From Sphingomonas sp. LT1P40 (GTDB taxonomy: Bacteria; Pseudomonadota; Alphaproteobacteria; Sphingomonadales; Sphingomonadaceae), in contig NZ_JAXOJT010000001.1 in NCBI RefSeq assembly GCF_036663835.1, positions 1,674,001-1,738,000 of the forward strand: a DNA stretch of 64,000 nucleotides. Direction: 5' to 3'. The notes below the pieces were generated by a model. It saw only the letters and a program-made list of their open reading frames with translations, made no database searches and was not told the origin of the DNA. Below are positions 8,042-26,033 of the stretch, one piece after another. The position numbers were made by a program, and so were the translations under genes. The stretch's first letter is position 1. Each line of letters starts with the position of its first letter.

Positions 8042-8057
8042 CCATACCCAGTTTTCG
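8042..8057 (-). promoter_or_regulatory. candidate operator, site A of GTATGG motif
   Basis: On the minus strand the site reads CGAAAACTGGGTATGG. It lies in the divergent region between the ACAD operon (start 8001) and the tandem TetR gene (start 8159). It matches the consensus nGAnnnTGCGGTATGG seen at four other promoters in the first 26 kb. A transcription-factor site is inferred from position and conservation only. Confidence 0.5.
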
Positions 8058-8158
8058 GTAAAGTGCGTCGACCACCAAATTTCCGCCGCGTCACACTCGC
8101 AAACGCACAATATAGCTTTAGGACTGTTTCTTCGAATCAAAGCTGCTAGTCTGTTCCA

Positions 8159-9403
8159 ATGGAAGCGGAAGAGGCGGTGCCAACCGAGGCGCGCGGGGAA
8201 ACAAAACGGTTCAGGGCCAAGCGCGACGCGATCCTCGCGGCGGCGGCTGACGTCATCAACGAACAAAGCGCCAAGGGTATGACCTTTGCCGATGTGGCGC
8301 AGCGCGTCGGCCTCAATACCACCAGCGTTACCTATTATTTCAAGCGCAAGGAAGACCTTGCCGCCGCCTGTTTCGACGTCACGCTCGACCGGCTCGACGA
8401 GATGCTGGACGCGGCGCACAAGGAGAGGACGCCGGAGGCGCGCGTTGCCCGCTATATCGAAATCAACATGGAGCGGCTGGCGCAGATCCATCGCGGTGAA
8501 GAAAAGGCGTTCGCCATCCTCTCCGACCTGCGCGCCATGGAAGGCGAGATGCGCGCCCGACTGATGCAGCGCTGGCAACAGATTTTCCGCAAGACGCGCG
8601 CTTTGTGGGGCAATGACGGGACGCGGGCCGAGACCGATCTGCGCGGCGGGCGCGCGCATGTGCTGCTGGAGAATACCTTCTGGCTGCCCGCCTGGCTGGT
8701 GCGGTACGAACTCGACGAATATCCGCGCGTCGCGGCCCGGCTGATGGACGTATTCCGCAACGGCATCGCCGCCACGGATTCCGTCTGGCAGCCGCAGATG
8801 CTCGACCTGGTGCATGACGAGGCCGAGCCGGGGCGCGAGGCATTCCTGCTCGCCGCCACCCGCCTGATCAACGAACTCGGCTATCGCGGCGCGTCGGTGC
8901 AGAAGATCGCCAGCGAGTTGAACGTGACCAAGGGCAGCTTCTACCACCATCTCGATGCCAAGGACGAACTGGTGATCGAATGCTATCGCCGCAGCTTCGA
9001 CATCATCGCCGATGCGCAGCGGCTGGCGGAGGAGACCGGCGGCAACCAGTGGCACCGGCTGACCAGCACGATCACGACGCTGCTCGACTTCCAGTTTTCA
9101 CAGCGCGGGCCATTGCTGCGCACGACCGCGCTGTCCGGCCTGCCCCCGCGCGTCCGCACCGCGATGGTCGATCGCTCCAACCGCATCGCGCGCCGCTATG
9201 CGGGCATGCTGTCGGACGGCATCGCCGAGGGATCGATCCGCCCGATCGATCCGCTGGTGGCGAGCCAGACGATGATGGCGATGCAGAACGCCGCGTTCGA
9301 CATGCGCAAATGGGCGGGCACGATGCCGCGCGACCGGGCGATCGCTTTCTACGCGTCGACCGTGGTGTTCGGGTTGTTCGACGATCGGGTGCTGGGGGGC
9401 TAG
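8159..9403 (+). CDS. transcriptional regulator with two TetR domains in tandem
   Basis: The 414-residue protein is about twice the usual TetR length. The first TetR N-terminal domain covers ~20-68 with helix-turn-helix FADVAQRVGLNTTSVTYYF. A ligand-domain-like region follows, then a second TetR HTH at ~227-272 (VQKIASELNVTKGSFYHHL) and a second ligand-domain-like region. Both HTHs look intact. It is divergent from the ACAD/kinase operon, so it is the likely local regulator, perhaps sensing an acyl-CoA. I see no strong ribosome binding site before ATG 8159. It converges with the next gene, leaving 7 bp between stops. Confidence 0.92.
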   Translation: MEAEEAVPTEARGETKRFRAKRDAILAAAADVINEQSAKGMTFADVAQRVGLNTTSVTYYFKRKEDLAAACFDVTLDRLDEMLDAAHKERTPEARVARYIEINMERLAQIHRGEEKAFAILSDLRAMEGEMRARLMQRWQQIFRKTRALWGNDGTRAETDLRGGRAHVLLENTFWLPAWLVRYELDEYPRVAARLMDVFRNGIAATDSVWQPQMLDLVHDEAEPGREAFLLAATRLINELGYRGASVQKIASELNVTKGSFYHHLDAKDELVIECYRRSFDIIADAQRLAEETGGNQWHRLTSTITTLLDFQFSQRGPLLRTTALSGLPPRVRTAMVDRSNRIARRYAGMLSDGIAEGSIRPIDPLVASQTMMAMQNAAFDMRKWAGTMPRDRAIAFYASTVVFGLFDDRVLGG

Positions 9404-9410
9404 CTCCGCC

Positions 9411-12400
9411 CTAACGCAGTGCCAAGGTGCCGCCGCGACAGGTTTCCGATCCCGCAAAACGTTCACCCGAATCAGGGTGCAACACGCTTTCCAGATAGGT
9501 CAATCGCGCGCGCGATTGGCTCGCCATCGGATTGCTGCCGGCGTCCTGGCGCAAACGACCAAGGAGCTGTTGCGCAAGATTGCGCGGCTGATTCCAGTCC
9601 GGTGTCGTGACGCCATCGATTGGATCGGCCTTTGCAGCATCGGCCATCAACGCAATGAGCCGGTGCCGGGGAAATGCGTCGCCCAGCCGCCCCGACAGGC
9701 CAGTCCGGAAGAGGCGCTGCAATTGCGTGAACTGGTCTGCCCGGCCTAGTATCCGGCTCGCCAGCGGATTGCCCCGTGCGAATGCCAGTGTGCGGTCGCC
9801 GATCCCGTCAGCAATTACGGGAAACTCCCACGGCCCAACAGGCTCCACCCCGGCGCACGCCTCATCGTCGCATGGTTGTTCGCGCTCAAAGGCGATTTGC
9901 AGCATGAACCGCACAAAATGATCGCTGGAAGATCCCGCTGCCGATCGCGCAATGCTGGCGACGGTCATCGGATAGTCCTTCTCGCGCACACCGCTCCAGA
10001 TTGCATAGGGCTGCGATTGATAGCGTGCGGTGTTGACCGGCGCAGCCTTTACGCAATTCAGAAACGCTTGCTGTCCTTCTGCAACTTGCGGTCGGCATTC
10101 CTTGATCCGCGCAACGAGCGACATGTCGAACCGTTGGGGGTCATGCGCGAAAATCGATGATACGGCGTCGCGCTCACGCCAGCGGTCCGCGAATGCCGTG
10201 TTGACGGCCAGGGCAAAGGGCGGTCCGCGATCATCCGCGAACATGCCGAGCGCATCGTCATCACCCGTGGCGGCGTTATAGACCGCCAGTTGGGTCGCAA
10301 CGATCATCGACCACAAACTGCGTTCCGGCCATTCTCCGGTGGCGGCATCGACGAAGCGGTCCAATTCCATCATTTCACAGCCCAGCGCCGAGTCTACCAG
10401 GGCCGGATGGATGTGAACGCGTAGGATGCTGGGCATGAGCGGCCCCGACGTCATGGTCACGGTGGTCGGGCGCGCGTCCGCCGCATAGGCGAGCGCCTGC
10501 TGTACCATCTCACCGTCGAACTGCCCTACCGGTATTGCCTTACCGTTCTGGCGGAGGAAGATGTCGAACATCGGACCCTTGCTCGTCCATGTGATATCAT
10601 CGACATTGATCTTACCATCACCTTGCGGATCGGTCCCGATCAGCACGCCACCCACGCGCACGGATCCGCGCAGGCGACTGAAGCTTCTGGACGCTGAGCC
10701 GGCACTTGCGGATCGTGTGCTTTTGCTCGCATCGCCGCCGCCGCCGATCCCGCCGCCGCCGCCACCGCCACCGCCTGCAGCAGCCTGCGCGATCGAAGGC
10801 GGCACGGGGACGCTAGACCCGTAGGATTTCGTTAGCGCACGACCCAATGGCGACTCGTTCAAGGCTTGGGCACGCCCGGGAAACAGGTCCTCATAGGAGC
10901 CGACTGATCCTTCGATTGCGCTGCGCAGGCTCTCGCTGCTGGAAACCATCGGACGCAGGTCTTCTACGGCGCGCGCCACCCGCGCCGTCGCCTGGGGCGG
11001 ATCGCTGCGCTGCAATGTCGGGTGAAGATCGGCAGCAGTACTCGCGACGCGCTGTGCGTTGGCGTCCCCGTTCCTCAACAATGTGCGTGCCAGATCGGCT
11101 TCGCTTTGCATGAAGAATGCCGGAACCCGCGCGCCCTTTCGCACGCGGTCGATCGACGACGCGTAGTTCGTGCCGGCTTCGATATCGTTGAGGAAATCGG
11201 CGAGTTTGGATTGAAGCATCCGCGACGCGGCATCCTTGATCGCGCCCTTGGCCTCGCTTCCCATCCGGTCGATGCGCGCACGGTCAGCGGGATCAGGCAA
11301 GGCGCCGTCGATCGAGGCCGAAAGCGCTTCATCGAGGACGCCACCGAACATATCTCCAAGCGAAGCCGGTTGCCGAAATGACGCAAGCCCGGCCTCAAGA
11401 CGCGCGCGAAACACGGGCGATGCATCCGCTTTCGCACGAATCCATTTCTCGATCCGGTTGACTGCCGTCTCGCCGCTATTGCTCTCGACCGACCGTCGCG
11501 CAACGAAGTCCCGAAATTCGCCATATTGCTGGCGAGCGGTTTCGGGCAGTGCGGTATCGCTCGCAAATGACATGCCGCGCATCGCAGATGCCCGCCCCGA
11601 TGCGTTCTGCGCAAAATCGCGCAGAATCGTATCGCGGATGACGATCTCCTCGATCAATCGGTCCGCAGCTTGCAACCCCGCGGGTCGCACCGCCATCTCG
11701 GGATGGACGCGCGTAACTGACGAGCGCCAGTCCGGCGACGAAACCAGAGCGCGTGCGAATTGCCGGGCTGCAACATGATATGAACCGCTGGCACCCGCCT
11801 CTTCCTCGGCGGACACAACCGGCGGGCGGGCGGCGACCTGCTTTGCGACTTGCTTCAGGCTGTTCTGCGCATCCTGTTGCGTGCGAAACACCTGGATGTC
11901 GTTGATCGATCCCAACGCGGGGATAATGCCCTGATTGGCCAGTACCGGCGCGGTCACCCCCAGAACGAGGAAGCACGCGACCGCCGTCCCACCCCGTTTC
12001 AGCAGCTTGCTTGTCGAAGTGATCGTATTTTGCGCGCCCTTGCTGAACAATCCAAGGCGAAGCGCGCCCCAGAAGCCACCGGTCGCGGGTTCCTCCACCC
12101 GGACCTGGGTAAGGTCGATGCGTCGATCGACGTCCAGAAACGTATATTGCGTGACCATCGTGTCGCGCATGTCGAGCAATTGCTTCAGTTTGCCCTGACT
12201 TTCTGCATCAGGCATTTCGGCGAGTTGCGCCGCAACCCCGTCACAGGTCGAAATATTCTGCTCGATCTGCTGCATCTGCTCGGTCGGCGGAAGATCGAGA
12301 TAGGCAGCATCATCCGCGAGAATTGTGTCGATCTGCCGCTTCCGCTCGCTGTCCAGCGAATCGGCGAGATTCGACCGTCGCATCCGCCACGCCATCCAGA

Positions 12401-12749
12401 AAATGGCAAGCAACGCCGTCCACAGCGCAAAGCCGCCGACAATGCTTTGCGCAGGGCCAATAATCTCGTTCACGCGCAGGACGAACCCATAGGTCGCATT
12501 CAACAGCGACGCGCCGAATACCGGCGCGATCAGCGTGAGCAAGCTCAACAAAACAAAAGCGATTACAAATACAAATAGCGCTATTTTCAGAAAATCCTCA
12601 ACGGTCCTGAGTGCAGTTACAGTGCCTGCCCGGGCGTATTTGCGAAGTGTTCCGTCGGACTGCCATCGCTTCTCAGACGCGGGAATGATCAGGAACCGGA
12701 GTGCGGCGTAAATCGCGCCGATCAATAGCACCACAAACCAGAGTTTCAT
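9411..12749 (-). CDS. large membrane-anchored protein of unknown function
   Basis: I do not recognise this 1112-residue protein. Four hydrophobic segments (about 3-23, 53-80, 102-122 and 254-272) are followed by ~840 residues that are probably periplasmic, with helical, Ala/Arg-rich stretches. Near residue ~695 a run of Gly separates this part from a C-terminal region containing GKINVDDITWTS, a Cys pair in CDDEACAG and one more Cys near the end. ATG 12749 (MKLWFVV) is preferred because it begins directly with a membrane helix; ATG 12782 is also in frame. It is alone between convergent and same-strand neighbours; no partner gene is evident. Confidence 0.85.
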   Translation of the reverse strand: MKLWFVVLLIGAIYAALRFLIIPASEKRWQSDGTLRKYARAGTVTALRTVEDFLKIALFVFVIAFVLLSLLTLIAPVFGASLLNATYGFVLRVNEIIGPAQSIVGGFALWTALLAIFWMAWRMRRSNLADSLDSERKRQIDTILADDAAYLDLPPTEQMQQIEQNISTCDGVAAQLAEMPDAESQGKLKQLLDMRDTMVTQYTFLDVDRRIDLTQVRVEEPATGGFWGALRLGLFSKGAQNTITSTSKLLKRGGTAVACFLVLGVTAPVLANQGIIPALGSINDIQVFRTQQDAQNSLKQVAKQVAARPPVVSAEEEAGASGSYHVAARQFARALVSSPDWRSSVTRVHPEMAVRPAGLQAADRLIEEIVIRDTILRDFAQNASGRASAMRGMSFASDTALPETARQQYGEFRDFVARRSVESNSGETAVNRIEKWIRAKADASPVFRARLEAGLASFRQPASLGDMFGGVLDEALSASIDGALPDPADRARIDRMGSEAKGAIKDAASRMLQSKLADFLNDIEAGTNYASSIDRVRKGARVPAFFMQSEADLARTLLRNGDANAQRVASTAADLHPTLQRSDPPQATARVARAVEDLRPMVSSSESLRSAIEGSVGSYEDLFPGRAQALNESPLGRALTKSYGSSVPVPPSIAQAAAGGGGGGGGGIGGGGDASKSTRSASAGSASRSFSRLRGSVRVGGVLIGTDPQGDGKINVDDITWTSKGPMFDIFLRQNGKAIPVGQFDGEMVQQALAYAADARPTTVTMTSGPLMPSILRVHIHPALVDSALGCEMMELDRFVDAATGEWPERSLWSMIVATQLAVYNAATGDDDALGMFADDRGPPFALAVNTAFADRWRERDAVSSIFAHDPQRFDMSLVARIKECRPQVAEGQQAFLNCVKAAPVNTARYQSQPYAIWSGVREKDYPMTVASIARSAAGSSSDHFVRFMLQIAFEREQPCDDEACAGVEPVGPWEFPVIADGIGDRTLAFARGNPLASRILGRADQFTQLQRLFRTGLSGRLGDAFPRHRLIALMADAAKADPIDGVTTPDWNQPRNLAQQLLGRLRQDAGSNPMASQSRARLTYLESVLHPDSGERFAGSETCRGGTLALR

Positions 12750-12838
12750 GCCTGCCCCCGCAACACTACTACCGGGGTACATTACCGGCTGTTTCCGCTG
12801 TTACAAGCGCACCAATTTATCCAATTCGGTCCGGCTGC

Positions 12839-14182: not shown

Positions 14183-14201
14183 ACGCACTTCACTCCATCA
14201 C

Positions 14202-14243
14202 AAAAAAAGGAGGCTTCGCCGTGTTGTCGCACGACGAAGCCTC
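14202..14243 (-). terminator. rho-independent terminator of the TonB-dependent receptor gene
   Basis: On the minus strand a stem with arms GAGGCTTCG and CGAAGCCTC (14235-14243 and 14210-14218) is extended by CGTG/CACG after one mismatch and followed by a seven-T tract. It begins 15 bp after the receptor stop codon. Confidence 0.9.
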
Positions 14244-14257
14244 ATTGGACACCAACC

Positions 14258-17212
14258 TCAGAATTTGGCGGCGACGCCAATTTTGAAGTTGCGGCCCAGC
14301 GGATTGCCGACGAACGGCTCGTAGTTGTAATCCTCCCGCGCGAACGGCGGATCCTGATCGAAGATGTTATAGACGCTGCCCGACAGGGTGACGCTGTCGG
14401 TGATGGCGAACTGGATGGTGAAATCGGCGCTGGTATAGCTTTCGATGTTCGCGCCGCCGGTCACGCGCGCGCCGCCCAGTGCCGCGTTCGGGCCATAGAT
14501 GCCCGCCGCCGTCGTATCGGCGCGCTGATCGTACAGCCCGTCGATATAGGTCACGGTCAGCCGCGCATCGACCGGACCGCTGCCCAGCTCCAGATAGCCC
14601 TGCCCCTTCCACTCCGGCACGGGATAGAGCGTGGTCTGGTAATTGAGCAGCCCGACCCCGTCATAGCCCGCCTGAACCAAGGTGCCCGCGACCGAGATAT
14701 CGCCGATGCGGTTCTGAAGCGTATAGGTCACGCTGCCGCCGATGCCGAAACGCGCGGCCCCGCCGAACATCTCGTTGTTACGATAGCCGACCGAGGCGTC
14801 GATGCCCTCGTTGGTGATCGACGCGCCGTTCTGCAACTCGGTGCGCACGCGCGAGATTGCCGTGCGCGTCGTCGCCGCCGTGCAGGGTCCGGTCGAGAAG
14901 GTGAAGCGCGCGGCCAGTGCGGCGTTGGTGGCACAGGTGTTGCCTGCACCCGCCGGGAACAGCGTGTTGACCATTGCGATCAGCGGATCGGTGACGATCA
15001 CATCCTTCAGGTCATAGCGGTAATAATCGAGGCTGGCGGTAAACCCACCGGCGTTCAACAGAATGCCGCCGCCATAGTTGGTCGACGATTCCGGGATCAG
15101 ATTGGGATTGCCGACCACGTCGATCGGGCGGAACGCGGTGTCGATGATCTGCAACGCGACCACGCCGTTGGTCGATACGTTGGCCAGGGTCGGCGCGCGG
15201 AAGGTGGTGCCGTATCCGCCGCGCAGTGCCAGCCAGTCGGTCACCTGCCAGCGTGCGCGAATCTGCGGATCGAAGGTCGAACCGATATTGCCGCCATAAT
15301 CTTCGTAGCGCGCCGCCAGCTGGACGTTCAGCGTGTCGAGGATCGGCAGCTGCATTTCGCCATAGATGGCATAGACGCTGCCCGACAAAGACGAGTTGCG
15401 GTTGGTGCCTAGGAAGCCCAGTGCGCCGGTCGCCGGACGACCGCCCGAGCACGCCGCCGCATTGGTGTTTCCGTTGAGCGGGGATTCGCGGCACGGATTC
15501 TGCGCCAGATTGTTGGCTGCGCCATAGGTCGTGTCGATCGATTCACTGCGATATTGGCCGCCAATGCCGAATTGCACCTCGCCGCCGGGCAGCGAAAAGC
15601 CGGTGCCGCCGCTGATCGATCCTTCGACCACCGTCAGTTCGGTATCGACCTGGGTGAACGACTTGACGAAGAACCAGTCGGTCAGCACGGACGAATTTGC
15701 CGGCCCGTTCCCCTGGCTGTTGGTCGCGCCGGTCGCCGCGTTACGTGTCACCGCATTGCCGAACGGGTTGAACCACATGCACCCGTTCGCACCCGGCGTG
15801 CTGCCGGTGCAATTCGGCCCGCCGAAACCGAGCAGCGCACGCTGCACGCGATCGCCATAGGAATCGGTACCGTCGATGTAGCGATAATAGTTATGATAGG
15901 TGAAATTGAGGTTGTAGTTCAAATTCGCGCTGATCTCGCCGCGCAGTTCGGCGGTCGCGCGGAAGGATTCGCTCTTGCGCATGCCGCGCGACGAGCCCGG
16001 CTCGGTCTCGTCGTTCAGCGTCCCCGGATTGCCGCCAAGCAGGAACGGGCGGAACAACAGGGTCGGGAACAGAACGCCCGCCCCCGCCGGCGTGCCCGCA
16101 TTGGCCGCACGATAGGCGACCAGACCGGGATTCTCGCTCGGCGCGAAAAAGCCGCTGCCGAACAGGGCGGCGAACGGCGCATAGGGCGTCCCCGCCGCCG
16201 CCACCGCCGATGGCGATTGCGTCAACAGATAGGATGGCGAGGTCAGATAGTGCGGCACGGTGGTGCGGCCGTACAGCAACGTCGTCTGGAACGTCATCGA
16301 CGGCGTGATGTCGATCTCGACATCGACGAACGCCTGTCCGCGCTTTTCCAGCTCGACCAGATTGTCATAGACCGAATATTGGTTGGAACAGCGGGCGTCC
16401 GCGCCGACGAACCCGCCCAGCGAGGCGCAGGATGCGTCACCGACCACGCCGGTCACCGGCGATCCCGCCGCGCTCAGGAACAGGAAGTTGGCGGGGTTGC
16501 CGCCGCCGGTCCAGCCGCCCTGCGGATTTTCGGCATAGGGCCGGATCGCCCAGTCGCGTTCCTTCGCCATCAGCTGACCGCGCTTCTGAAAGCCCGCGGC
16601 GAACAGCACACGCAGATTCTCGCCGACATGGCCATAGCTGAGCGACAGATCGACATCGCCATCCGAGCCGTCGATGAACTTGTAGCTGGCCGCACCCTGA
16701 AAGCCGCGCTGATTGGTGCGCGTGATGAAGTTGACCACGCCCGCAATCGCTTCGGAACCATAGGTCGCCGCCGCGCCGTCCTTCAGGATTTCGACGCGTC
16801 CCAGCGCCGCCGATGGCAGCATGTTGATATCGACCGAGGGGACGCCGTTACCCGACGTGGCCAGCCGTTTCGAGTTGAGCAGTACCAAAGTGCGCTGCGG
16901 GCTGAGGCCGCGCAGATTGACCGTGGCAATGCCCTCGGCACCCTGCGACCGGCTGTCGAACTGGTTGGAATCGCCCAGCGACGCGCTCGATGTCGGCAGC
17001 GCCTTGACCAGTTCCAGCGTCGACGGATTGCCCTGTTTCGACAGTTCCTCGGCACCGATCACGTCGACCGGCAGCGCCGCATCCTCGGGCGTGCCCGCGA
17101 TGATCGAACCGGTAATGACGATTTCGCTCTCACCGTCCTGTGCATAAGCCGGCGAGGCCACCCCGATCGCCAGCGCCGAGAATCCGCACGCCACCAATAG
17201 CTGCTTCTTCAT
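14258..17212 (-). CDS. TonB-dependent outer-membrane receptor
   Basis: The 984-residue protein has a signal peptide ending in SPAYAQ, an ESEIVITGS TonB-box-like start, a plug domain (roughly 35-165, with VNLRGLSPQRTLVLLNSKR), and a long 22-strand-type barrel ending in a terminal Phe (KIGVAAKF). Such receptors import large or scarce molecules using TonB energy. Its length and the LSPQRTLVLLN plug style are typical of sphingomonad receptors for organic substrates rather than siderophores. ATG 17212 (MKKQLLV) is chosen because the signal peptide begins there. It sits among acyl-CoA catabolic genes, suggesting it takes up the pathway substrate. Confidence 0.95.
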   Translation of the reverse strand: MKKQLLVACGFSALAIGVASPAYAQDGESEIVITGSIIAGTPEDAALPVDVIGAEELSKQGNPSTLELVKALPTSSASLGDSNQFDSRSQGAEGIATVNLRGLSPQRTLVLLNSKRLATSGNGVPSVDINMLPSAALGRVEILKDGAAATYGSEAIAGVVNFITRTNQRGFQGAASYKFIDGSDGDVDLSLSYGHVGENLRVLFAAGFQKRGQLMAKERDWAIRPYAENPQGGWTGGGNPANFLFLSAAGSPVTGVVGDASCASLGGFVGADARCSNQYSVYDNLVELEKRGQAFVDVEIDITPSMTFQTTLLYGRTTVPHYLTSPSYLLTQSPSAVAAAGTPYAPFAALFGSGFFAPSENPGLVAYRAANAGTPAGAGVLFPTLLFRPFLLGGNPGTLNDETEPGSSRGMRKSESFRATAELRGEISANLNYNLNFTYHNYYRYIDGTDSYGDRVQRALLGFGGPNCTGSTPGANGCMWFNPFGNAVTRNAATGATNSQGNGPANSSVLTDWFFVKSFTQVDTELTVVEGSISGGTGFSLPGGEVQFGIGGQYRSESIDTTYGAANNLAQNPCRESPLNGNTNAAACSGGRPATGALGFLGTNRNSSLSGSVYAIYGEMQLPILDTLNVQLAARYEDYGGNIGSTFDPQIRARWQVTDWLALRGGYGTTFRAPTLANVSTNGVVALQIIDTAFRPIDVVGNPNLIPESSTNYGGGILLNAGGFTASLDYYRYDLKDVIVTDPLIAMVNTLFPAGAGNTCATNAALAARFTFSTGPCTAATTRTAISRVRTELQNGASITNEGIDASVGYRNNEMFGGAARFGIGGSVTYTLQNRIGDISVAGTLVQAGYDGVGLLNYQTTLYPVPEWKGQGYLELGSGPVDARLTVTYIDGLYDQRADTTAAGIYGPNAALGGARVTGGANIESYTSADFTIQFAITDSVTLSGSVYNIFDQDPPFAREDYNYEPFVGNPLGRNFKIGVAAKF

Positions 17213-17250
17213 AGATCCCACTCCCGTTTGGCCGGAACACTCTATCGTTT

Positions 17251-17266
17251 CCATACCGCAAACTCG
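17251..17266 (-). promoter_or_regulatory. candidate operator, site B of GTATGG motif
   Basis: On the minus strand the site reads CGAGTTTGCGGTATGG, ending 38 bp before the receptor start. It lies just downstream of a putative -10 element, so bound protein would block transcription initiation. See the other motif sites at 8042, 20237, 21799 and 26018. Confidence 0.5.
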
Positions 17267-17295
17267 AATAGATCGATTCTCGGGCCATCGGTCAA
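17267..17295 (-). promoter_or_regulatory. candidate promoter of the TonB-dependent receptor gene
   Basis: On the minus strand TTGACC (17295-17290) and TCTATT (17272-17267) are separated by 17 bp, an acceptable housekeeping-sigma promoter. The rest of 17296-17509 shows no gene; it includes a moderately A/T-rich stretch and no further signal I can name. Confidence 0.4.
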
Positions 17296-17509
17296 GTCAA
17301 CAAAACCGTTGCGAATTGCCACCTATCCTCACCTGAGGCATATATGTCACCGGGGGTTGCGGCCATATGGGGGTATGTTGAACGAAGGTTCGAAAATCTG
17401 ATTTGACGACTCGTTGCCGACGGCGGTTTGTGGTGGCCCTCAAAAGAGGAAACCACGGGCGCGCCGTCAGAGCGGACAGGCCGCTAACGACCCGATGGAG
17501 GACTGCATT

Positions 17510-17682
17510 CCCTCTCCCGTCGGGAGAGGGTTGCGCAGACTAGGTTCGCGTTCTTCACGCGGCTCTAGTCGGAGCTGGGTGAGGGGATCACCCCATCGAG
17601 AGCGCGGGGTCCCCTCATCCAACCTCCGCTAGGCAGCAAGCTGCCAAGCTGCGGTATCCTTCTCCCTCTGGAGAAGGTTTGG
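17510..17682. repeat. ~170-bp intergenic repeat, copy 2 (inverted relative to copy 1)
   Basis: The reverse complement of this segment matches 1293-1462 over nearly its whole length, including the bounding palindromes CCTCTCCCG/CGGGAGAGG and CTTCTCC/GGAGAAG. The least conserved part is ~30 bp near the CCTCTCCC end. It lies beyond the 3' end of the ACAD small-subunit gene and upstream of the receptor promoter. Confidence 0.85.
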
Positions 17683-17797
17683 CACGCTCGCATTCCACCA
17701 ATATCCGCCGCTAATTGTGCTTCCGATTTTGCAGGGTTCATCGGTTGCAACAACCTCGCGGACAGATTTGCTAAAGCATGGGGCTAATTACTGGCCT

Positions 17798-18868
17798 TCA
17801 AAACCCGCCCAACCGCGCAAACCGGTCGCGGTGATACGCGGTATTCCCCCATTGCTGCTCCAATACGCGCATCCGTTTCAGGACGAACCCGGCGTCATAT
17901 TCATCGGTCATACCGATGCCGCCGTGGAGCTGGATCAGTTCGCGGCTCATCAGATGGCCGACCTCATTGGCCTTGCCCTTGGCCAGCGATGCGGCCTGGC
18001 GCGTATCCGCTCCGCTGTCGATTGCCGCCAAGCCCACCTCGACGACCGACCGCATTACCTCGATCTCGCTGAACAGGTTCGCCATGCGGTGCTGGATCGC
18101 CTGGAACGTCGCCAGCACCTGTCCGAACTGCACGCGCTGTTTCAGATAGGCCAACGTCGTGTCGAATGACTGTCCGGCCATGCCCAACATTTCCGCTGAG
18201 GTCAGGATCGCGGCGCGGTCGAGCACCTTGTCCAGCAGCGCATCGCCGCCATCCGCCAGCCTGTCCGCCCCCGCGCCGTCGAACGCGACATCGGCATGGC
18301 TGCGGAAATCGACCAGATGGCGGCGCGTTACGGTGACGCCCGCCCCGGCCTCGACCAGATACAGGCCGTCGCTCGCGGCGACCACGAACAGCCCCGCACT
18401 GTCGCCCTCGGCCACGAACGCCTTGGCCCCGGACAGCGTGCCGCCCTCGACCTTCGCGGCGATCCCCGCCGGATCGTGGCGCGGCCCTTCGTCCACCGCC
18501 AGCGTCGCCACCAGTTCACCACTGGCGATACGCGGCAGATACTTCGCCTTCTGCGCGTCGCTCCCGCCCAGCAAAATCGCCGATGCGGCCGCCGCCGACA
18601 CCGCCAGCGGGCTGGCCGTCATCGTCTTGGCCAGCTCCTCGATCACCAGCCCCAGGCTCAGCCAGCCGAAATCGCTGCCGCCATGCGCCTCGGGGATGAT
18701 GATCCCGGTCCAGCCCATTTCGGCCATCGTCGAATATGCGCCCGCGTCGAACCCGGCGGCGGTGTCGGCATCGCGCACCTTGCGCCACGCGTTTACCGGA
18801 CTCTCGTTCGTCGCCCAATCGCGCGCCATGTCGCGCAGCATCGTCTGTTCTTCGGTCAGAACGGCCAT
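17798..18868 (-). CDS. acyl-CoA dehydrogenase, small-subunit type
   Basis: A 356-residue ACAD that is shorter and more divergent than the classic enzymes. It has MGWTGIIIPEAHGGSDFGW in the N-terminal domain, RVQFGQ.LATFQAIQHR in the C-terminal domain and LHGGIGMTDEYDAG near the end. The middle domain lacks the usual MTEP.AGSD motif. This is the pattern of the small subunit of heteromeric ACADs such as pimeloyl-CoA dehydrogenase PimD or steroid ChsE-type enzymes. It is encoded downstream of a matching 403-residue large subunit and probably forms an alpha2beta2 complex with it. ATG 18868 has GAGGGAA upstream. Confidence 0.9.
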   Translation of the reverse strand: MAVLTEEQTMLRDMARDWATNESPVNAWRKVRDADTAAGFDAGAYSTMAEMGWTGIIIPEAHGGSDFGWLSLGLVIEELAKTMTASPLAVSAAAASAILLGGSDAQKAKYLPRIASGELVATLAVDEGPRHDPAGIAAKVEGGTLSGAKAFVAEGDSAGLFVVAASDGLYLVEAGAGVTVTRRHLVDFRSHADVAFDGAGADRLADGGDALLDKVLDRAAILTSAEMLGMAGQSFDTTLAYLKQRVQFGQVLATFQAIQHRMANLFSEIEVMRSVVEVGLAAIDSGADTRQAASLAKGKANEVGHLMSRELIQLHGGIGMTDEYDAGFVLKRMRVLEQQWGNTAYHRDRFARLGGF

Positions 18869-18898
18869 TGTAGATTCCCTCGTCGTCCTCCGCTCCCC

Positions 18899-18981
18899 CG
18901 TCATCCCAGCGAAAGCTGGGATCTCCTACCGCGAGGGAAACGCTCAGTGCCACCAGACCCCAGCTTTCGCTGGGGTGACGG
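18899..18981. repeat. inverted pair of short palindromic repeats
   Basis: Two ~26-bp inverted copies (18899-18924 and 18957-18981), each holding the palindrome CCAGCGAAAGCTGG flanked by GTCA.CC. They lie between the two ACAD genes of one operon and touch the stop codon of the large-subunit gene. They could set relative expression of the two subunits through RNA structure. Confidence 0.8.
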
Positions 18982-20193
18982 CTATTGATGATCCAGCATC
19001 CGCAGTATCTGCTTGGCGATCACGTTGTTCTGGATCTCGGTCGATCCGCCGTAGATTGTCGTCGCCTTGCCGAACAGCCAGCCGCGCACGCCCTGCAACT
19101 CGGCGGCGGAGAAGCCTTCGCCCTCCCAGCCCAGCCCTTGCATCCCCTGAATCTCGATCATCAGCTCGGCGCGTTCCTGCCCCAGCTTGGTGCCGACCGT
19201 TTTCAGGATCGAGGAGACTTCGGACACCCCGCCGACCGCCTTCGATTCCGCCTGAACCCGCATCGCGGTCAACAGGAACGCGCGCCAGTCCATCTCGAAC
19301 TTGGCGATCCGTGCTCGCAAATCCGGATCGGCGATGCGGCCCTCCGCATCCGAACCGACATATTTCTTGGCCATGTCCGACAACGACGGCCCACCCATGC
19401 GGAACGCAGACCCGCCGCCCGACAAATTGGTCCGCTCATGCTGGAGCAGCCTTTTGCCGATCGTCCAGCCCTGCCCCTCCGCGCCGACGCGGTTTTCCTT
19501 GGGCACCTTCACATCGGTGAAGAAGGTTTCGCAGAAGGGCGACATGCCGGAAATCATCTGGATCGGCTTCACCTCGACCCCGGGCGCATCCATGTCCATC
19601 AGCAGGAAGGTGATGCCGCCCTGTTTCTGGGTCTTGTCGGTGCGGACGAGGCAGAAGCATTTGTCGGCCCATTGGCCGCCCGACGTCCACGTCTTCTGGC
19701 CGTTGACGAGATAATGGTCGCCTTTGTCCTCGGCGAAGGTCTGAAGATTGGCGAGGTCGGATCCGGCATTGGGTTCCGAATAGCCTTGGCACCACCGGAC
19801 TTCGGCCCTGGCGATCGCCGGGATATGCTCGCGTTTCTGTTCCTCGCTGCCATATTCCAGCAAGGTCGGGCCGAACATCATCACGCCCATGCCGCCGATC
19901 GGGTTCCATGCGCCGATACGGCCCATTTCTTCCTGCAATATCTTGGCCTCGGCACGGCTCAGCCCGCCGCCGCCATATTCGCGCGGCCAGGTCGGGACGC
20001 CCCAGCCCTTGTCGCCCATCGCGCGCCGCCACGCATCCTGTTCGGGGGACAGCTCGCCCGGCCCCTCGACCGCGGACATCGCATTGTCCTTGCCCTTCAG
20101 CGATGCGGGGAAGTTCTGCGCCAGCCATTCGCGCACTTCGGCGCGAAATGCGTCGATGCCGGTTGCCGCCACGGGTTCAGCCACGGTTGCCAT
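18982..20193 (-). CDS. acyl-CoA dehydrogenase, large-subunit type
   Basis: A 403-residue FAD-dependent ACAD. It contains the WP.EYGG motif, YSEPNAGSDLAN for FAD/substrate binding, NGQKTWTSG, and IYGGSTEIQNNVIAKQIL at the end. The Glu of the usual YEGT position is replaced (YGGST), so the base is probably the Glu of LLQHERT, as in isovaleryl-type and steroid enzymes. This fits the large subunit of PimC/ChsE-like heteromers. AAGGAGAG precedes ATG 20193. It shares an operon with 17798-18868 and has the GTATGG motif 44 bp upstream. Confidence 0.92.
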   Translation of the reverse strand: MATVAEPVAATGIDAFRAEVREWLAQNFPASLKGKDNAMSAVEGPGELSPEQDAWRRAMGDKGWGVPTWPREYGGGGLSRAEAKILQEEMGRIGAWNPIGGMGVMMFGPTLLEYGSEEQKREHIPAIARAEVRWCQGYSEPNAGSDLANLQTFAEDKGDHYLVNGQKTWTSGGQWADKCFCLVRTDKTQKQGGITFLLMDMDAPGVEVKPIQMISGMSPFCETFFTDVKVPKENRVGAEGQGWTIGKRLLQHERTNLSGGGSAFRMGGPSLSDMAKKYVGSDAEGRIADPDLRARIAKFEMDWRAFLLTAMRVQAESKAVGGVSEVSSILKTVGTKLGQERAELMIEIQGMQGLGWEGEGFSAAELQGVRGWLFGKATTIYGGSTEIQNNVIAKQILRMLDHQ

Positions 20194-20236
20194 TTTCTCT
20201 CCTTACCGGAGCGATTGCGCCGCTCCGTCCATATTT

Positions 20237-20252
20237 TGAATGTGCGGTATGG
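20237..20252 (+). promoter_or_regulatory. candidate operator, site D of GTATGG motif
   Basis: The plus strand reads TGAATGTGCGGTATGG. Read with the minus-strand ACAD gene, a TTGACG -35-like hexamer (20267-20262) precedes CCATACCGCA by exactly 9 bp, as at site C. The motif therefore falls in the promoter spacer. Confidence 0.5.
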
Positions 20253-20274
20253 CGGGCGTCGCGTCAATCCGGAT

Positions 20275-21774
20275 TCAGCGGCCGGGGCCGCCCAGCGCCG
20301 CATTGTCCATTTCGCGCGCCTTCGCCTCCGCTTCGCGCGCCCGCAAGGCGGCGACATTTTCCTCATGCTTCGCCTGGGTGATCGGATAGAAAATCAGGAA
20401 CAGCGCGCCGAGCGTCCACAGCCCGATCGACATCGGGATATAGTGGAAGGCTAGGCTCTGGATCATCGCGTCGGTCACCTGGCCCGGTGCAGGCTTGTCG
20501 GGAAAATCGGACCAGACCAACAGCTTGCCCGCGAGGAAGATGCCGACCGCAGTGGAGCATTGCTGCATGAAGCTGGCGGCGGCGAAGAACGTCCCCGCCT
20601 CGTGCCGCCCGGTCTTTAGCGCGCTATCCTCGACCACATCCGCCAGCATCGAAGATGTGTTGATGAGGCTGATTGCGACCATCGCGCCATAGACCGCACC
20701 GATCACGAACAGCGTGGGCACCAGCCGGGGATCGCCCGGCACGAAGAACAGGTCATTCGCCGCCAGGAACAGCGGCGAAAGGCCGATTGCGACGCCCAGC
20801 ACCGCGAAGATCATCGAGCTGGTTCGCTTGCCCACCCAGCGCGACATCACCGGGGCGAGCGGCGCGGCGAGCGTGGCGGCGACCAGGCTGTCGATCGTCA
20901 GGATCGCCATTTGCGCGGCGTTGACCTTGAACAGATAGGTCAGAAAAAACAGCTGCGTCGCGCTGTAAAGGCCGATGGCGGAGTATTTGAGCACGCCGAA
21001 GCCGAAGATCGACAGGAAGGCGCGGTTCTTCAGTGCCCCGCCCATCTCACGCAGATGCGTCATCAGCGGCATCGGTTCGCTGCGCACCACCGCCTGACGC
21101 AGATACGGGATGCGGTTGTGCGTGCCGAGCCCGCAGAGCAGGATTGCTACGACGATGGTCAGCGCACCGGCGATGGCGAACCCGGAATAGCCCGCCGGAT
21201 TGAGCTGGCCGCGCGGATAGGCGGCGGTCGCGGCGAAGAAGGTCAGCAGGCAGATCGTCGTGAAACCGTATGTCCCGGCATAGCCGAACCACCAGCGCAG
21301 CCCGAACAGCTTGGTGCGCTCACCATAATCCTCGGTCATTTCCGGGGTCATCGCCGATGTGTTGATCTCGAACGCGCTAATGCACACGCGCGTCATCGCG
21401 GCGGTGGCGAAGATCCACAGGCCGGTCTGGAGGTCGCTCATTCCGCTGGGCGGAAACCATGCCAGCAAGAAGAAGAAGCCGGTCGGGATCGCCGAGCCAT
21501 AAATGAACGGATGCCGCCGTCCCCAGCGGCTGCGCGTATTGTCCGACCAGCGCCCGATCAGCGGATCGGCAACCGCGTCGATAATCAGCGTGCAGGCGAC
21601 GGCGGTAGCGACGATGGAGGCGGAAATGCCGATGATCTGGCTATAAAAGAATAGCAGATAGCTGGTGAAGGCGGCGTTCTTGACCCCGTTGGCGATGGCT
21701 CCGGCACCATAAGTGACGCGCGTTCCGAACGTGATCGGCGGAATTTCAGCCGCACCATCCGCCACCGTCGCCAT
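20275..21774 (-). CDS. GPH-family cation symporter (MelB-like MFS)
   Basis: A 499-residue carrier of the glycoside-pentoside-hexuronide/cation symporter family. It has an early DAVADPLIGRWSDNTRSRWGRRHPFI block (membrane helix 2 and its loop), the diagnostic feature, then about 12 helices and a charged C-terminal tail. Family members import sugars with Na+ or H+, but sphingomonad members beside lipid catabolic genes are often of unknown substrate. ATG 21774 is preferred over ATG 21780 because GCGGAGG lies six bases upstream. It is followed by the ACAD pair on the same strand, with a motif-bearing promoter between. Confidence 0.9.
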   Translation of the reverse strand: MATVADGAAEIPPITFGTRVTYGAGAIANGVKNAAFTSYLLFFYSQIIGISASIVATAVACTLIIDAVADPLIGRWSDNTRSRWGRRHPFIYGSAIPTGFFFLLAWFPPSGMSDLQTGLWIFATAAMTRVCISAFEINTSAMTPEMTEDYGERTKLFGLRWWFGYAGTYGFTTICLLTFFAATAAYPRGQLNPAGYSGFAIAGALTIVVAILLCGLGTHNRIPYLRQAVVRSEPMPLMTHLREMGGALKNRAFLSIFGFGVLKYSAIGLYSATQLFFLTYLFKVNAAQMAILTIDSLVAATLAAPLAPVMSRWVGKRTSSMIFAVLGVAIGLSPLFLAANDLFFVPGDPRLVPTLFVIGAVYGAMVAISLINTSSMLADVVEDSALKTGRHEAGTFFAAASFMQQCSTAVGIFLAGKLLVWSDFPDKPAPGQVTDAMIQSLAFHYIPMSIGLWTLGALFLIFYPITQAKHEENVAALRAREAEAKAREMDNAALGGPGR

Positions 21775-21798
21775 CCACATCCTCCGCCGCTGATTTTT

Positions 21799-21814
21799 GG
21801 AAGATGCGGTATGG
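21799..21814 (+). promoter_or_regulatory. candidate operator, site C of GTATGG motif
   Basis: The plus strand reads GGAAGATGCGGTATGG, between the divergent MFS genes at 21774 (minus) and 21900 (plus). For the minus-strand gene, TTGACC (21829-21824) precedes CCATACCGCA by 9 bp, the same arrangement as site D. Confidence 0.5.
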
Positions 21815-21899
21815 ATGACGACAGGTCAAGCATCCGGTTGATATTCGTGCCCAACTGGAACATGCCGTCAGCGAAGTTCGGAATCGCCGGGGGGCAGGC

Positions 21900-23120: not shown

Positions 23121-23169
23121 GCGACGCGCAACCCCATCTGTCGGCTGTAAACCGATGGAGACACCTGCG

Positions 23170-23868
23170 ATGATCGACCTGTTCTACTGGCCCACCCCGA
23201 ACGGCCACAAGATCACGCTGTTTCTGGAAGAGGCCGGCACCCCCTATGCGATCCACCCCGTCAACATCGGGCAGGGCGACCAGTTCAAGCCCGATTTCCT
23301 GAAGATCGGCCCCAACAACCGCATGCCCGCGATTGTCGACACCGCCCCCGCCGATGGCGGCGAGCCGGTCAGCGTGTTCGAGAGCGGCGCGATCCTGATC
23401 TACCTCGCGCTGAAGGAGGGCAAATTCTATGGCGACAGCCCGCGTGAACGCACCGACATATTGCAATGGCTGATGTGGCAGATGGGGGGCTTGGGGCCGA
23501 TGGCCGGGCAGAACCATCATTTTAACCGCTATGCGCCCGAGCCGATTCCCTATGCGCAGAAGCGCTATATCGACGAGACCAACCGGCTGTACGGCGTGCT
23601 CGACCGGCAACTGGCGGGCAGGCCGTTCGTCGCGGGGGAGCATTACTCGATTGCCGACATGGCGATCTATCCGTGGATCGTGCCGTACGAGGCACAGAGC
23701 CAGAATCTGGACGATTTCCCGCATGTGAAGCGCTGGTTCGAGGCGGTCGGTGCGCGCCCGGCGACAGTGCGGGCCTATGCCAAGGGCGAGGAAATCCGGC
23801 CCAGCAATGTGACGATGACGGATGAGCAGAAGAAGATACTGTTCGGACAAACGGCGAAGCGCGATTAG
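23170..23868 (+). CDS. glutathione S-transferase family protein (Ure2p/YghU-like)
   Basis: A 232-residue GST. The N-terminal thioredoxin-like half contains FYWPTPNGHKITLFLEEAG and ends with the SVFESGAILIYLA glutathione-binding loop; the helical half has HHFNRYAPE and FVAGEHYSIADMAIYPW. The TPNGHK start is that of the YfcG/YghU nu-class, which often have disulfide-bond reductase activity. ATG 23170 is chosen because GGAG precedes it by nine bases; ATG 23155 would overlap that site. The role within the catabolic cluster is not evident; detoxification of electrophilic intermediates is plausible. Confidence 0.92.
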   Translation: MIDLFYWPTPNGHKITLFLEEAGTPYAIHPVNIGQGDQFKPDFLKIGPNNRMPAIVDTAPADGGEPVSVFESGAILIYLALKEGKFYGDSPRERTDILQWLMWQMGGLGPMAGQNHHFNRYAPEPIPYAQKRYIDETNRLYGVLDRQLAGRPFVAGEHYSIADMAIYPWIVPYEAQSQNLDDFPHVKRWFEAVGARPATVRAYAKGEEIRPSNVTMTDEQKKILFGQTAKRD

Positions 23869-23903
23869 GGCACAAGCCAGCGGGCACCACGGAGGAACGC
23901 GCA

Positions 23904-24434
23904 ATGCGCAGGCGGAACATGCTGGGAATGACCGGGATCGTATCGGCAACCCTGCTGACAGGTGCCGCCCCGGCGACGGTGCCGCGCCGCGATTTGACCG
24001 CGCGAGTGCGACAGGTGGTCGATCTGTATGGAGCCGCATGGAACGCCGGTGACATGGCCGCGATGGCCGCACTCTACACACCCGATGTCCACTGGGTGAA
24101 TATCGTCGGCATGCACTGGCAGGGCCGTGAGGAAGTCGATTACGCCCACCGCGCATTGTTCGAGAACACCTTCAAAGGCGTCACCCAGACGATGGAGGAA
24201 ATCGAGTCGGTAACGCCGATGCCGGGCGGCGGGGCAATCGCGGTGGTGCGCTGGGCCGTTGCGGAATATCGCACCCCGTCCGGTCAGGTTAGTCCGGCCA
24301 GCCGGACCCGGATGTCGCTGACGCTGTTGCCCAAGGGCGATCGATTGCTGATCGCGCATGGTGCGAATATCCAGATTGTCGAGGGCGCGCAGCGATCGGA
24401 CCCGGTTCGACAACGGCGCGAACGCAAGAAGTAG
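23904..24434 (+). CDS. exported SnoaL/NTF2-like protein
   Basis: A 176-residue protein with a possible signal peptide (MRRRNMLGMTGIVSATLLTGAAPA), possibly Tat-like given the RRRN start. The body is a single NTF2-fold domain of the SgcJ/EcaC or DUF4440 kind: YGAAWNAGDMAAMAALYTPDVHWVNIVG followed by strand-rich sequence and a basic tail. Members range from isomerases to proteins of unknown role. It follows a GST gene by 35 bp and ends two bases before the stop of the convergent DUF2256 gene. Confidence 0.85.
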   Translation: MRRRNMLGMTGIVSATLLTGAAPATVPRRDLTARVRQVVDLYGAAWNAGDMAAMAALYTPDVHWVNIVGMHWQGREEVDYAHRALFENTFKGVTQTMEEIESVTPMPGGGAIAVVRWAVAEYRTPSGQVSPASRTRMSLTLLPKGDRLLIAHGANIQIVEGAQRSDPVRQRRERKK

Positions 24435-24436
24435 CG

Positions 24437-24589
24437 TTACGCAACCGGGGTTGCCGCGCCCTGTGATCGGCAGCGGTCGGAGCAATATTTCACACTGTCC
24501 CAGTCACGCGCCCATTTCTTGCGCCAGGCAAACGGGCGGGCGCAGGCGACGCAGATCTTGGTCGGCAGGGTGAGCTTCTTGTGCGCCAC
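24437..24589 (-). CDS. small zinc-ribbon protein (DUF2256)
   Basis: A 50-residue protein with CVACARPF and [17 protein letters not shown], the two-knuckle zinc-binding pattern of the DUF2256 family. The start is taken as the GTG at 24589, one base after the TGA of the SDR gene, with AGGGGTGAG as its ribosome binding site; this suggests translational coupling. An in-frame ATG farther up (24643) would overlap the SDR gene by ~50 bases and adds unconserved residues. The function of the family is unknown. Confidence 0.8.
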
Positions 24590-24590
24590 C

Positions 24591-25385
24591 TCACCCCTTC
24601 CCCGGCCTTCTCGACAGCCCCACATCCAGATGCGCCCCCGCATCCAGCAACAGCGTCTCGCCGGTAATTACCCGGCTGGCGGGATCGAGTAGGTTGACGA
24701 CCGGCCCGGCGATATCCTCAGCATGCGGGGCCATCGCCATCGGGGTCTGGCTGGCGATGAACGCCTCGAACTTTTCGAATGCTTCCTGTGGCATGCGCTC
24801 GCTGAACCAGCCGGTGCCGACATAGCCGGGGGCGACGGCGTTGACGCGGATCGCCGGGGCCAGCACGCGGGCGAGGCTTTTGGTCATCGTAATCAGCGCG
24901 CCCTTTGACGCGGCATAGGCGACCGACGATCCGTTGCCGAACACGCCCGCGACCGATGCGATGCTGACGACCGCGCTCGCTGGGCCTTCGCGCATCGCGG
25001 GCGCGCAGGCGCGGATCATCTGAAACGGGGCTATGGTGTTGAGGCGGTAGATGTCGATGAAATCATCGGCGTTCAACGCGTCCATATCCTCATGATTGGC
25101 GAACTTGGTCTTGCCCGAATTATTGACCAGCAGGTCGATCCGCCCGAACGCATCGAGCGCGGCGGCGGCCAGTGCGCTGCACTGCGCGTCGTCAGCGATA
25201 TCAGCCTGAACCGCGATTGATCCATTGCCGACCTCCGCCGCCAATGCCTCGGCGGCATCGCGGCTGCTGGCATAGTTGATGACGCAACGCACCCCGCGCG
25301 ACCCCAGTTTCCGCACGACCGCGGCGCCGATCCCGGTGCCGCCGCCGGTGACGATCGCCGTCATTCCGTCCATCGCGTCGCTCAT
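24591..25385 (-). CDS. short-chain dehydrogenase/reductase
   Basis: A 264-residue SDR with [10 protein letters not shown] as cofactor motif, NYASSRD after beta-2, NNSGKT in place of [14 protein letters not shown] with the catalytic Ser, and YAASKGAL with Tyr/Lys. The ASSRD segment favours NADP(H). The start overlaps the upstream GST stop as ATGA, so both are made from one message. Its substrate is probably a hydroxyacyl or ketoacyl derivative, judging from the divergent acyl-CoA ligase. Confidence 0.92.
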
Positions 25386-25996
25386 GCGGCGCTGCTCGGG
25401 CGGGCGGTGACACGGCGGTGCCAGTCGTTCAGGCGCGCCAGCTCCTCGGGCACGCTCAGCCCGATGAAGGTGCCGAAATCGATCGTGGTCAGCAGCAGGA
25501 TATCGGCCATCGTATAATGCTCGCCCACAATGAACGGCGTCTCGCCCAGCGCAGTGTCGCACATCGTCAGCGCGCGCTCCACCAGAACGCGGTTGCTCTC
25601 GCCGAAATCCTTATATTGATGCGGCATCACGCGCGCGGTGAAGGGATGGGTATGGACCCAGATCATGCCGGTCGGCACCATCAGCCGCAACTCGATCCGC
25701 CGGTTCCACATTTCGACGCGGGCGACGTCGATCGGGTCCCGTCCGAACATCGGCGGTTCGGGGTGCAGCGCTTCCAGATAGCGGCAGATCGCAACGCTCT
25801 CGGTCAGCACCGTGCCGCAGTCCAGCTTCAGCGACGGCGTCTGGCCAAGCGGGTTGATTGCGCGATACGCCTCGCTCTTGTGCTCGCCCTTCAGGATCGA
25901 CACGTCCTCGCGCGGCAGGTCGACCCCCTTCTCCGCGGCGAAGATGCGCACGCGGCGCGGATTGGGGGCTGGCATGGTCGAATCGTAGAAGATCAT
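25382..25996 (-). CDS. glutathione S-transferase family protein
   Basis: A 204-residue GST. The N-terminal half has MPAPNPRRVRIFAAEKG and NPLGQTPSLKLDCGTVLTESVAI, which carries the Glu-Ser glutathione contact, and the C-terminal helical half has VGEHYTMADILLL. ATG 25996 follows CAGGAG at good spacing. It is the first gene of a GST-SDR-DUF2256 transcript, divergent from the acyl-CoA ligase, with the GTATGG motif between the two start codons. Confidence 0.92.
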   Translation of the reverse strand: MIFYDSTMPAPNPRRVRIFAAEKGVDLPREDVSILKGEHKSEAYRAINPLGQTPSLKLDCGTVLTESVAICRYLEALHPEPPMFGRDPIDVARVEMWNRRIELRLMVPTGMIWVHTHPFTARVMPHQYKDFGESNRVLVERALTMCDTALGETPFIVGEHYTMADILLLTTIDFGTFIGLSVPEELARLNDWHRRVTARPSSAA

Positions 25997-26017
25997 CGGC
26001 CTCTCCTGATCGTTTTT

Positions 26018-26033
26018 AGAAGATCGCGTATGG
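26018..26033 (+). promoter_or_regulatory. candidate operator, site E of GTATGG motif
   Basis: The plus strand reads AGAAGATCGCGTATGG, preceded by five T as at site C. It lies 22 bp upstream of the GST start and 50 bp upstream of the acyl-CoA ligase start, so it could control both directions. Confidence 0.45.

Follow-up and report, generated by a model that had tools for sequence, protein, structure and literature searches.

The stretch of DNA analysed (the window, 64,000 nucleotides of Sphingomonas sp. LT1P40) carries a gene cluster for the catabolism of fatty-acid-like molecules, which is syntenic in many relatives. The named relatives of its proteins belong mostly to Sphingomonas. The genes of the cluster, the elements in its promoter regions and the promoter-like hexamers are listed below, the five element sites being numbered as in an earlier note on this DNA.

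5621-6706, Zn-ADH, after ACAD1
6718..8001 (-), ACAD1, acyl-CoA dehydrogenase, divergent from the regulator gene
8042..8063 (-), 22-bp element, site 1, between ACAD1 and the double-TetR gene
8159..9403 (+), double-TetR regulator, 414 aa, proposed repressor
14258..17212 (-), TonB-dependent receptor, probable start MKKQLL at 17212 (start chosen by eye)
17251..17272 (-), 22-bp element, site 2 (the weakest), upstream of the TonB-dependent receptor
17798..18904 (-), ACAD2, downstream of ACAD3
18982..20193 (-), ACAD3
20231..20252 (+), 22-bp element, site 3, upstream of ACAD3
20262..20267 (-), -35-like hexamer TTGACG of the ACAD3 promoter, 9 bp from the element
20275..21780 (-), MFS2, GPH-type carrier
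21793..21814 (+), 22-bp element, site 4, upstream of the GPH-type carrier (MFS2)
21824..21829 (-), -35-like hexamer TTGACC of the MFS2 promoter, 9 bp from the element
25382..25996 (-), glutathione S-transferase (GST)
26012..26033 (+), 22-bp element, site 5, between the divergent GST and acyl-CoA ligase genes
26083..27612 (+), acyl-CoA ligase (AMP-binding), divergent from GST

For ACAD3, the best NCBIfam score was that of the pimeloyl-CoA dehydrogenase large subunit, at 287 bits far below the cut-off of 624.

The earlier note had described a 16-bp GTATGG motif common to five promoter regions. The five 16-mers were recovered at 8057-8042 and 17266-17251 on the minus strand and at 20237, 21799 and 26018 on the plus strand. 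The common motif is real, since the five sites take the five top ranks in the window, but its unit is a single directional element of 22 bp, roughly nTTTnYCGAAnnTnSGGTAYGG, of which the 16-mer covers the right-hand 16 bp. The element has a T-rich half, which ends in GAA (CGAA as a rule), and a second half, SGGTAYGG. At site 8042, the other half, CTTTACCG, is located 6 bp away from GGGTATGG, and the halves of this ACAD1/regulator site are near-palindromic. Some of the putative operators are near-palindromic and others lopsided, and they are of graded quality. GAA was present at positions 8-10 in 34 of 34 sites, and position 9 had its mirror match in 6 of the 34. Forward scores exceeded reverse scores by at least 18.9 bits, a gap that is partly built in because the directional matrix picked the sites in one direction.

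A first matrix was built from 20 unique ACAD1/double-TetR sites of relatives, with the window excluded. Among 127,958 window positions it placed the five sites at ranks 1, 2, 4, 5 and 30, the 21793 site being second and the TonB-receptor site 30th. A broader matrix was composed of the first one and 27 sites at other promoters of relatives, and contained no sequence of the window or of TonB receptors; it is not independent of the first matrix, because the 27 added sites were found by the latter. Here the five sites occupied window ranks 1-5 in the order 8042, 21793, 26012, 20231 and 17251 (30.5, 28.4, 25.8, 24.6 and 20.2 bits), the next position reaching 12.9 bits. The matches of at least 15 bits were exactly these five, versus 0.21 per shuffled window (100 shuffles). 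In 26 Sphingomonas-type loci, the training loci of the matrix included, 96 matches were obtained versus 1.2 in shuffles.

Short motifs behaved differently. The hexamer GTATGG alone was not enriched in the window (14 vs. 11.8 +/- 3.9 in shuffles), and GCGGTATGG was not enriched in the 3.47-Mb genome (25 vs. 35 for the reversed control); by count, therefore, the short motif proves nothing, whereas the 22-bp element does. With one mismatch, CGGTATGG was mildly raised (61 vs. 46.4). The pattern TNTNNNGAANNYNSSGTAYGG yielded four exact matches in the own genome, and 13 vs. 11 for the control at a maximum of one mismatch. As this pattern was drawn up with the window sites in view, the four exact matches prove only the absence of further exact ones. 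Within the genus, 45 of 60 genomes had an exact match, compared with 5 of 60 for the reversed control; beyond it there was no enrichment (6 of 39 genomes, control 9 of 39). One-mismatch sites at loci L123 and L125 were weak and were not counted as elements.

Across Sphingomonas, orthologous promoters have kept the element. The ACAD1/double-TetR intergenic region was aligned for 46 loci having both genes at an identity of at least 60%, with some genomes repeated and one locus being that of the window; CTTTACCGAAnnnnSGGTAYGn (ACAD1 strand) was present in all 46. By the first matrix, the ACAD3, carrier and ligase/GST promoters of relatives carry the element as well. The right-hand half was found as CCRTACCS in 22 of 25 Sphingomonas-type ACAD3 upstream regions. 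No element was present at ACAD3 in L009 and L010, the closest loci in ACAD3 sequence. In both, the carrier has its own site and is followed by ACAD3, so one promoter may serve both genes. The ligase/GST site is centred 41-61 bp from the ligase start in those Sphingomonas-type loci that have the element. Seven TonB-receptor promoters were scanned, giving 17.3-21.7 bits in five Sphingomonas, 9.1 bits in L078 and 7.1 bits in Tsuneonella (L017).

The genome-wide weight-matrix scan proposed in the earlier note was performed with a sequence-only model (R1) built from 34 sites of relatives. Its E-values are rough, and it scored 150 of the 1127 candidates from a first look, so that sites of lower rank may have escaped. 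Seven matches were obtained at E<=10 in the 3.47-Mb genome. Ranks 1-4 were sites of the earlier note, at 8042 (16.0 bits), 26013, 20233 and 21794 (13.9 bits); the TonB-receptor site scored 7.9 bits. Ranks 5-7 (C1:241286, C1:672790 and C1:1668120) are located just upstream of acyl-CoA or reductase genes. C1:241286 precedes a MaoC-like hydratase, named by eye and by a partial PaaZ match, which is followed by a thiolase. C1:672790 precedes an MDR-type reductase, and C1:1668120 lies between an acyl-CoA ligase and a hydrolase gene, the latter followed by an enoyl-CoA-hydratase-like start (hydrolase and hydratase-like start named by eye).

Orthologs of these three genes were matched in 56, 51 and 35 of 61 same-genus genomes, and 30 loci each, own genome included, were scanned upstream with a matrix lacking those promoters. 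At a threshold of at least 10 bits, the element was detected at 23 of 30 hydratase orthologs (coding control 0 of 30), at 29 of 30 orthologs of the ligase outside the cluster (coding control 1 of 30), and at just 7 of 30 reductase orthologs (coding control 0 of 30). Seven hydratase loci stayed below 10 bits: in six of them a variant occupies the usual position, and the remaining one (L198) lacks a proper upstream region, its start being 88 bp from the end of a contig. In 27 of 30 loci the ligase region contains a pair of elements spaced by 85-118 bp, the first close to the ligase and the second close to the divergent hydrolase; the weaker member of the pair had scores as low as 2.0 bits. The ligase-region site contains an ATG which, in the own genome, might be the start codon of the divergent hydrolase, and it was considered whether the site is no more than that. 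This was rejected, since in many relatives the frame from this ATG is short, a long one beginning 28-50 bases downstream.

The product of 8159-9403 matches TetR_N in two stretches. Its predicted model (pLDDT 87.3, pTM 0.87) has HTH helices at about residues 43-60 and 247-261, and the single chain contains two TetR units, each with its own HTH. According to the model, this one chain would fold as an asymmetric pseudo-dimer. In 44 sequences with identities down to 40%, both units show next to no variation in their recognition helices. An ortholog with 65-89% identity is present in 58 of 60 same-genus genomes. Where relatives bear a database name, it is only TetR/AcrR, TetR or AcrR family regulator. 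The best structural match of the predicted fold was Mce3R, over residues 14-405 at 13-14% sequence identity; in a sequence search of PDB chains, Mce3R was not among the best 60 of 63 matches. The nearest single-unit folds, matched to the C-terminal half, include AibR, Bacillus FadR, PfmR and KstR2, which are ordinary single-unit TetR proteins acting as homodimers.

From sequence comparison, it is very probable that a single transcriptional repressor uses the five sites as operators, the double-TetR protein (8159-9403) being the most likely candidate. The proposal of the earlier note that this protein is the regulator is favoured by the comparative evidence, binding being predicted. The same evidence favours one regulator for the whole region, but its sites extend to genes outside the window.

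Repression is suggested by the protein family and by the overlap of the element with promoter-like boxes. The two TTGAC -35 hexamers described at 20237 and 21799 were found as TTGACG and TTGACC, exactly 9 bp from CCATACCGCA. The corresponding arrangement TTGACN-N9-CCRTACCS is present in 18 of 25 Sphingomonas-type ACAD3 upstream regions; with this arrangement the element occupies both spacer and -10 region, as expected of a repressor site. The ACAD3 -10 was placed by distance only. The element thus overlaps the promoter spacer, as had been stated, but does not merely fill it, since it reaches the -10 region too. At MFS2, the hexamer spacing is the same in L009 and L010 and one base longer in L014. 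The reported proximity to gene starts was also found: gaps between the element and the nearest likely start (chosen by eye) are 12-49 bp, and the 26018 site lies between GST and the ligase start at 26083. An activator, or a regulator with a dual role at some of these promoters, would account for the varying position of the element relative to promoter-like boxes and for its direction, which is that of the gene at ACAD1 and the receptor and opposite at ACAD3 and the carrier. It is nevertheless unlikely, because an activator would hardly bind where the element lies at ACAD3 and the carrier, after the -35-like hexamer and ahead of the start, and the solved double-TetR relative Mce3R is a repressor.

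The assignment of the sites to the double-TetR protein was examined by co-occurrence. Forty-two genomes of other genera hold ACAD3 loci, 31 with a full-length double-TetR protein (34-51% identity) and 11 without. Of the 54 loci, seven (L029, L030, L047, L056, L060, L067 and L076) were left out as unclassified, and five of those counted are second loci of an already counted genome. The loci around ACAD3 were scanned at a threshold of 15 bits. Where the genome has the protein, 18 of 36 loci contained matches (25 in total, 2.4 expected) and the other half had none; where it lacks the protein, the count was 0 of 11 loci (0.65 expected). The chance of 0 of 11 is 0.002 if the loci are taken as independent, which they are not, being related by descent. 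With a stricter core pattern, seven matches were found in the 36 loci versus 0.2 in shuffles, and none in the 11.

It is quite improbable, on balance, that a different transcription factor encoded elsewhere owns the operators and that the double-TetR protein is only a neighbour. A strict link between protein and site is challenged chiefly by genome G007, in which no double-TetR protein was found and elements are retained at the MaoC-like hydratase (16.5 bits) and ACAD3 (20.9 bits), in an assembly that is 84% complete and consists of 610 contigs. The window's own genome (G000) has other TetR-like proteins, with three matches of which the double-TetR protein itself is one. In most loci of other genera the element does not adjoin the regulator; within 400 bp upstream of the regulator, nothing above 6 bits was found in 20 of 25 loci, the best being 14.5 bits (L036). 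Against these points stand the co-occurrence given above, the near invariance of both HTHs, and the most conserved copy of the element, which adjoins the double-TetR gene in Sphingomonas. Furthermore, the complete genome G055 lacks both the double-TetR protein and the element at its ligase ortholog (best score -1.1, compared with 7.7-19.1 in seven other diverged ligase orthologs).

It is very improbable that the block represents a promoter read by a specific sigma factor and not an operator. Such a reading agrees with the overlap with promoter-like boxes and with the constant spacing of TTGAC at ACAD3 and the carrier. A promoter of this kind would, however, be expected to have one fixed direction relative to the gene, whereas the block occurs in both directions. 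A chance resemblance between short GTATGG motifs, in a genome rich in GC, fits the lack of enrichment of GTATGG and GCGGTATGG but can be practically dismissed in view of ranks 1-5 with a foreign-trained matrix and the excess of matches over shuffles in the Sphingomonas-type loci.

The element, its conservation and asymmetry, the regulon, the co-occurrence and the predicted fold were computed here, and binding of the double-TetR protein is strongly indicated by them. In the proposed mechanism of repression by this protein, the single chain with its two different TetR units would fold as a pseudo-dimer and read the lopsided 22-bp operator. The bound repressor would cover promoter elements of the ACAD1, ACAD3, carrier, receptor and ligase/GST genes and block RNA polymerase, and acyl-CoA or a related pathway intermediate would probably release it. 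For acyl-CoA as the ligand there is a hint by analogy in the target genes and in the AibR- and FadR-like folds, whose PDB titles name isovaleryl-CoA (AibR) and stearoyl-CoA (FadR). Autoregulation is uncertain, because the element in the regulator's own region is centred 84-141 bp from the regulator start and is closer to the divergent ACAD1.

A wider proposal is put forward tentatively. A Sphingomonadales-wide family of single-chain double-TetR repressors might be a general regulator of acyl-CoA catabolism replacing FadR/PsrA, with a directional operator used both ways and paired at the ligase promoter. If this is true, double-TetR proteins are a mainstream design in a proteobacterial order and no longer a mycobacterial oddity. 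For a widespread family of sphingomonad regulators, the results predict an operator and a regulon, and the latter would tell which Sphingomonas genes for acyl-CoA breakdown belong together. Several operators of graded quality in an environmental genus would also allow a direct test of how a site is divided between the two different HTHs of a single chain.

Among known systems, EdcR of Caenibius tardaugens is likewise a TetR-type regulator at a catabolic cluster of a sphingomonad. It is described as an estrogen-dependent repressor with one HTH domain and one TetR_C_11 domain, and its proposed operator overlaps -10 boxes and is a palindrome of different sequence, TnnCnnTACnAnTnGTAnnGnnA (PMC8700777). 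By eye, none of the five window elements has TAC and GTA five bases apart as in TnnCnnTACnAnTnGTAnnGnnA. FadP, PsrA and LiuQ are TetR-type regulators of fatty acid and branched-chain metabolism in Proteobacteria, for which control of acyl-CoA catabolism was derived from comparative genomics; the text on these regulators names no double-TetR protein, and describes FadP and LiuQ as unique to betaproteobacteria among the regulators studied (PMC5343134). Double-TetR repressors as such are already known, and were described as infrequent, with 204 predicted in Actinomycetes (PMC11667970). In the open-licence literature on double-TetR proteins and Sphingomonas acyl-CoA regulons, no sphingomonad member and no report of this operator was found; one match to 'double TetR' referred to a fluorescent focus label and not to a member of the protein family.

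The closest known system is Mce3R (Rv1963c, PDB 9b7y) of the pathogen Mycobacterium tuberculosis, which binds an asymmetric 25-bp operator and whose DNA complex was called the first structure of a double-TetR repressor (PMC11667970). The targets differ, being ACADs, ligases, a hydratase/thiolase operon and transporters of Sphingomonas in the present case, and the halves of the ACAD1/regulator site are near-palindromic here. The likeness consists in the double-TetR fold, and would extend to an asymmetric operator (about 25 bp for Mce3R) if the double-TetR protein binds the 22-bp element.

In other genera, the GTATGG end of the 22-bp element was replaced by GTATCC, GTATGA or GTATGC (loci L022, L024, L036, L073, L075, L077, L082 and L088). 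The sequences of these variant ends suggest drift of the predicted operator alongside a more distant double TetR protein.

In the Sphingomonas sp. LT1P40 genome, an SDR gene is preceded at a distance of 26-46 bp by a candidate site with one mismatch to the element (L123, G000:C1:10070), and this site may be a further member of the element set. It was absent from the own-genome match list of the sequence-only model R1. A separate TetR-like gene lies beside the site, as does one of AMP-binding-like type; these gene names were assigned by eye.

Within the window, the TonB receptor gene is separated from ACAD2 by a gap of about 500 bp (17270-17797), in which CTCTCCC/GGGAGAG-like palindromic stretches were seen by visual inspection. 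Outside the operator finding, an open frame of 1123 aa (9411-12782) adjoins the double-TetR gene; a Pfam search of this frame gave no match.

Element pairs spaced 85-118 bp apart were present in the upstream regions of acyl-CoA ligase orthologs (27 of the 30 loci L217-L246), with the GGTATGG type on the divergent hydrolase side and the GGTTTGG type on the ligase side. This two-element layout recalls the paired sites of Mce3R, the double-TetR repressor of Mycobacterium tuberculosis.
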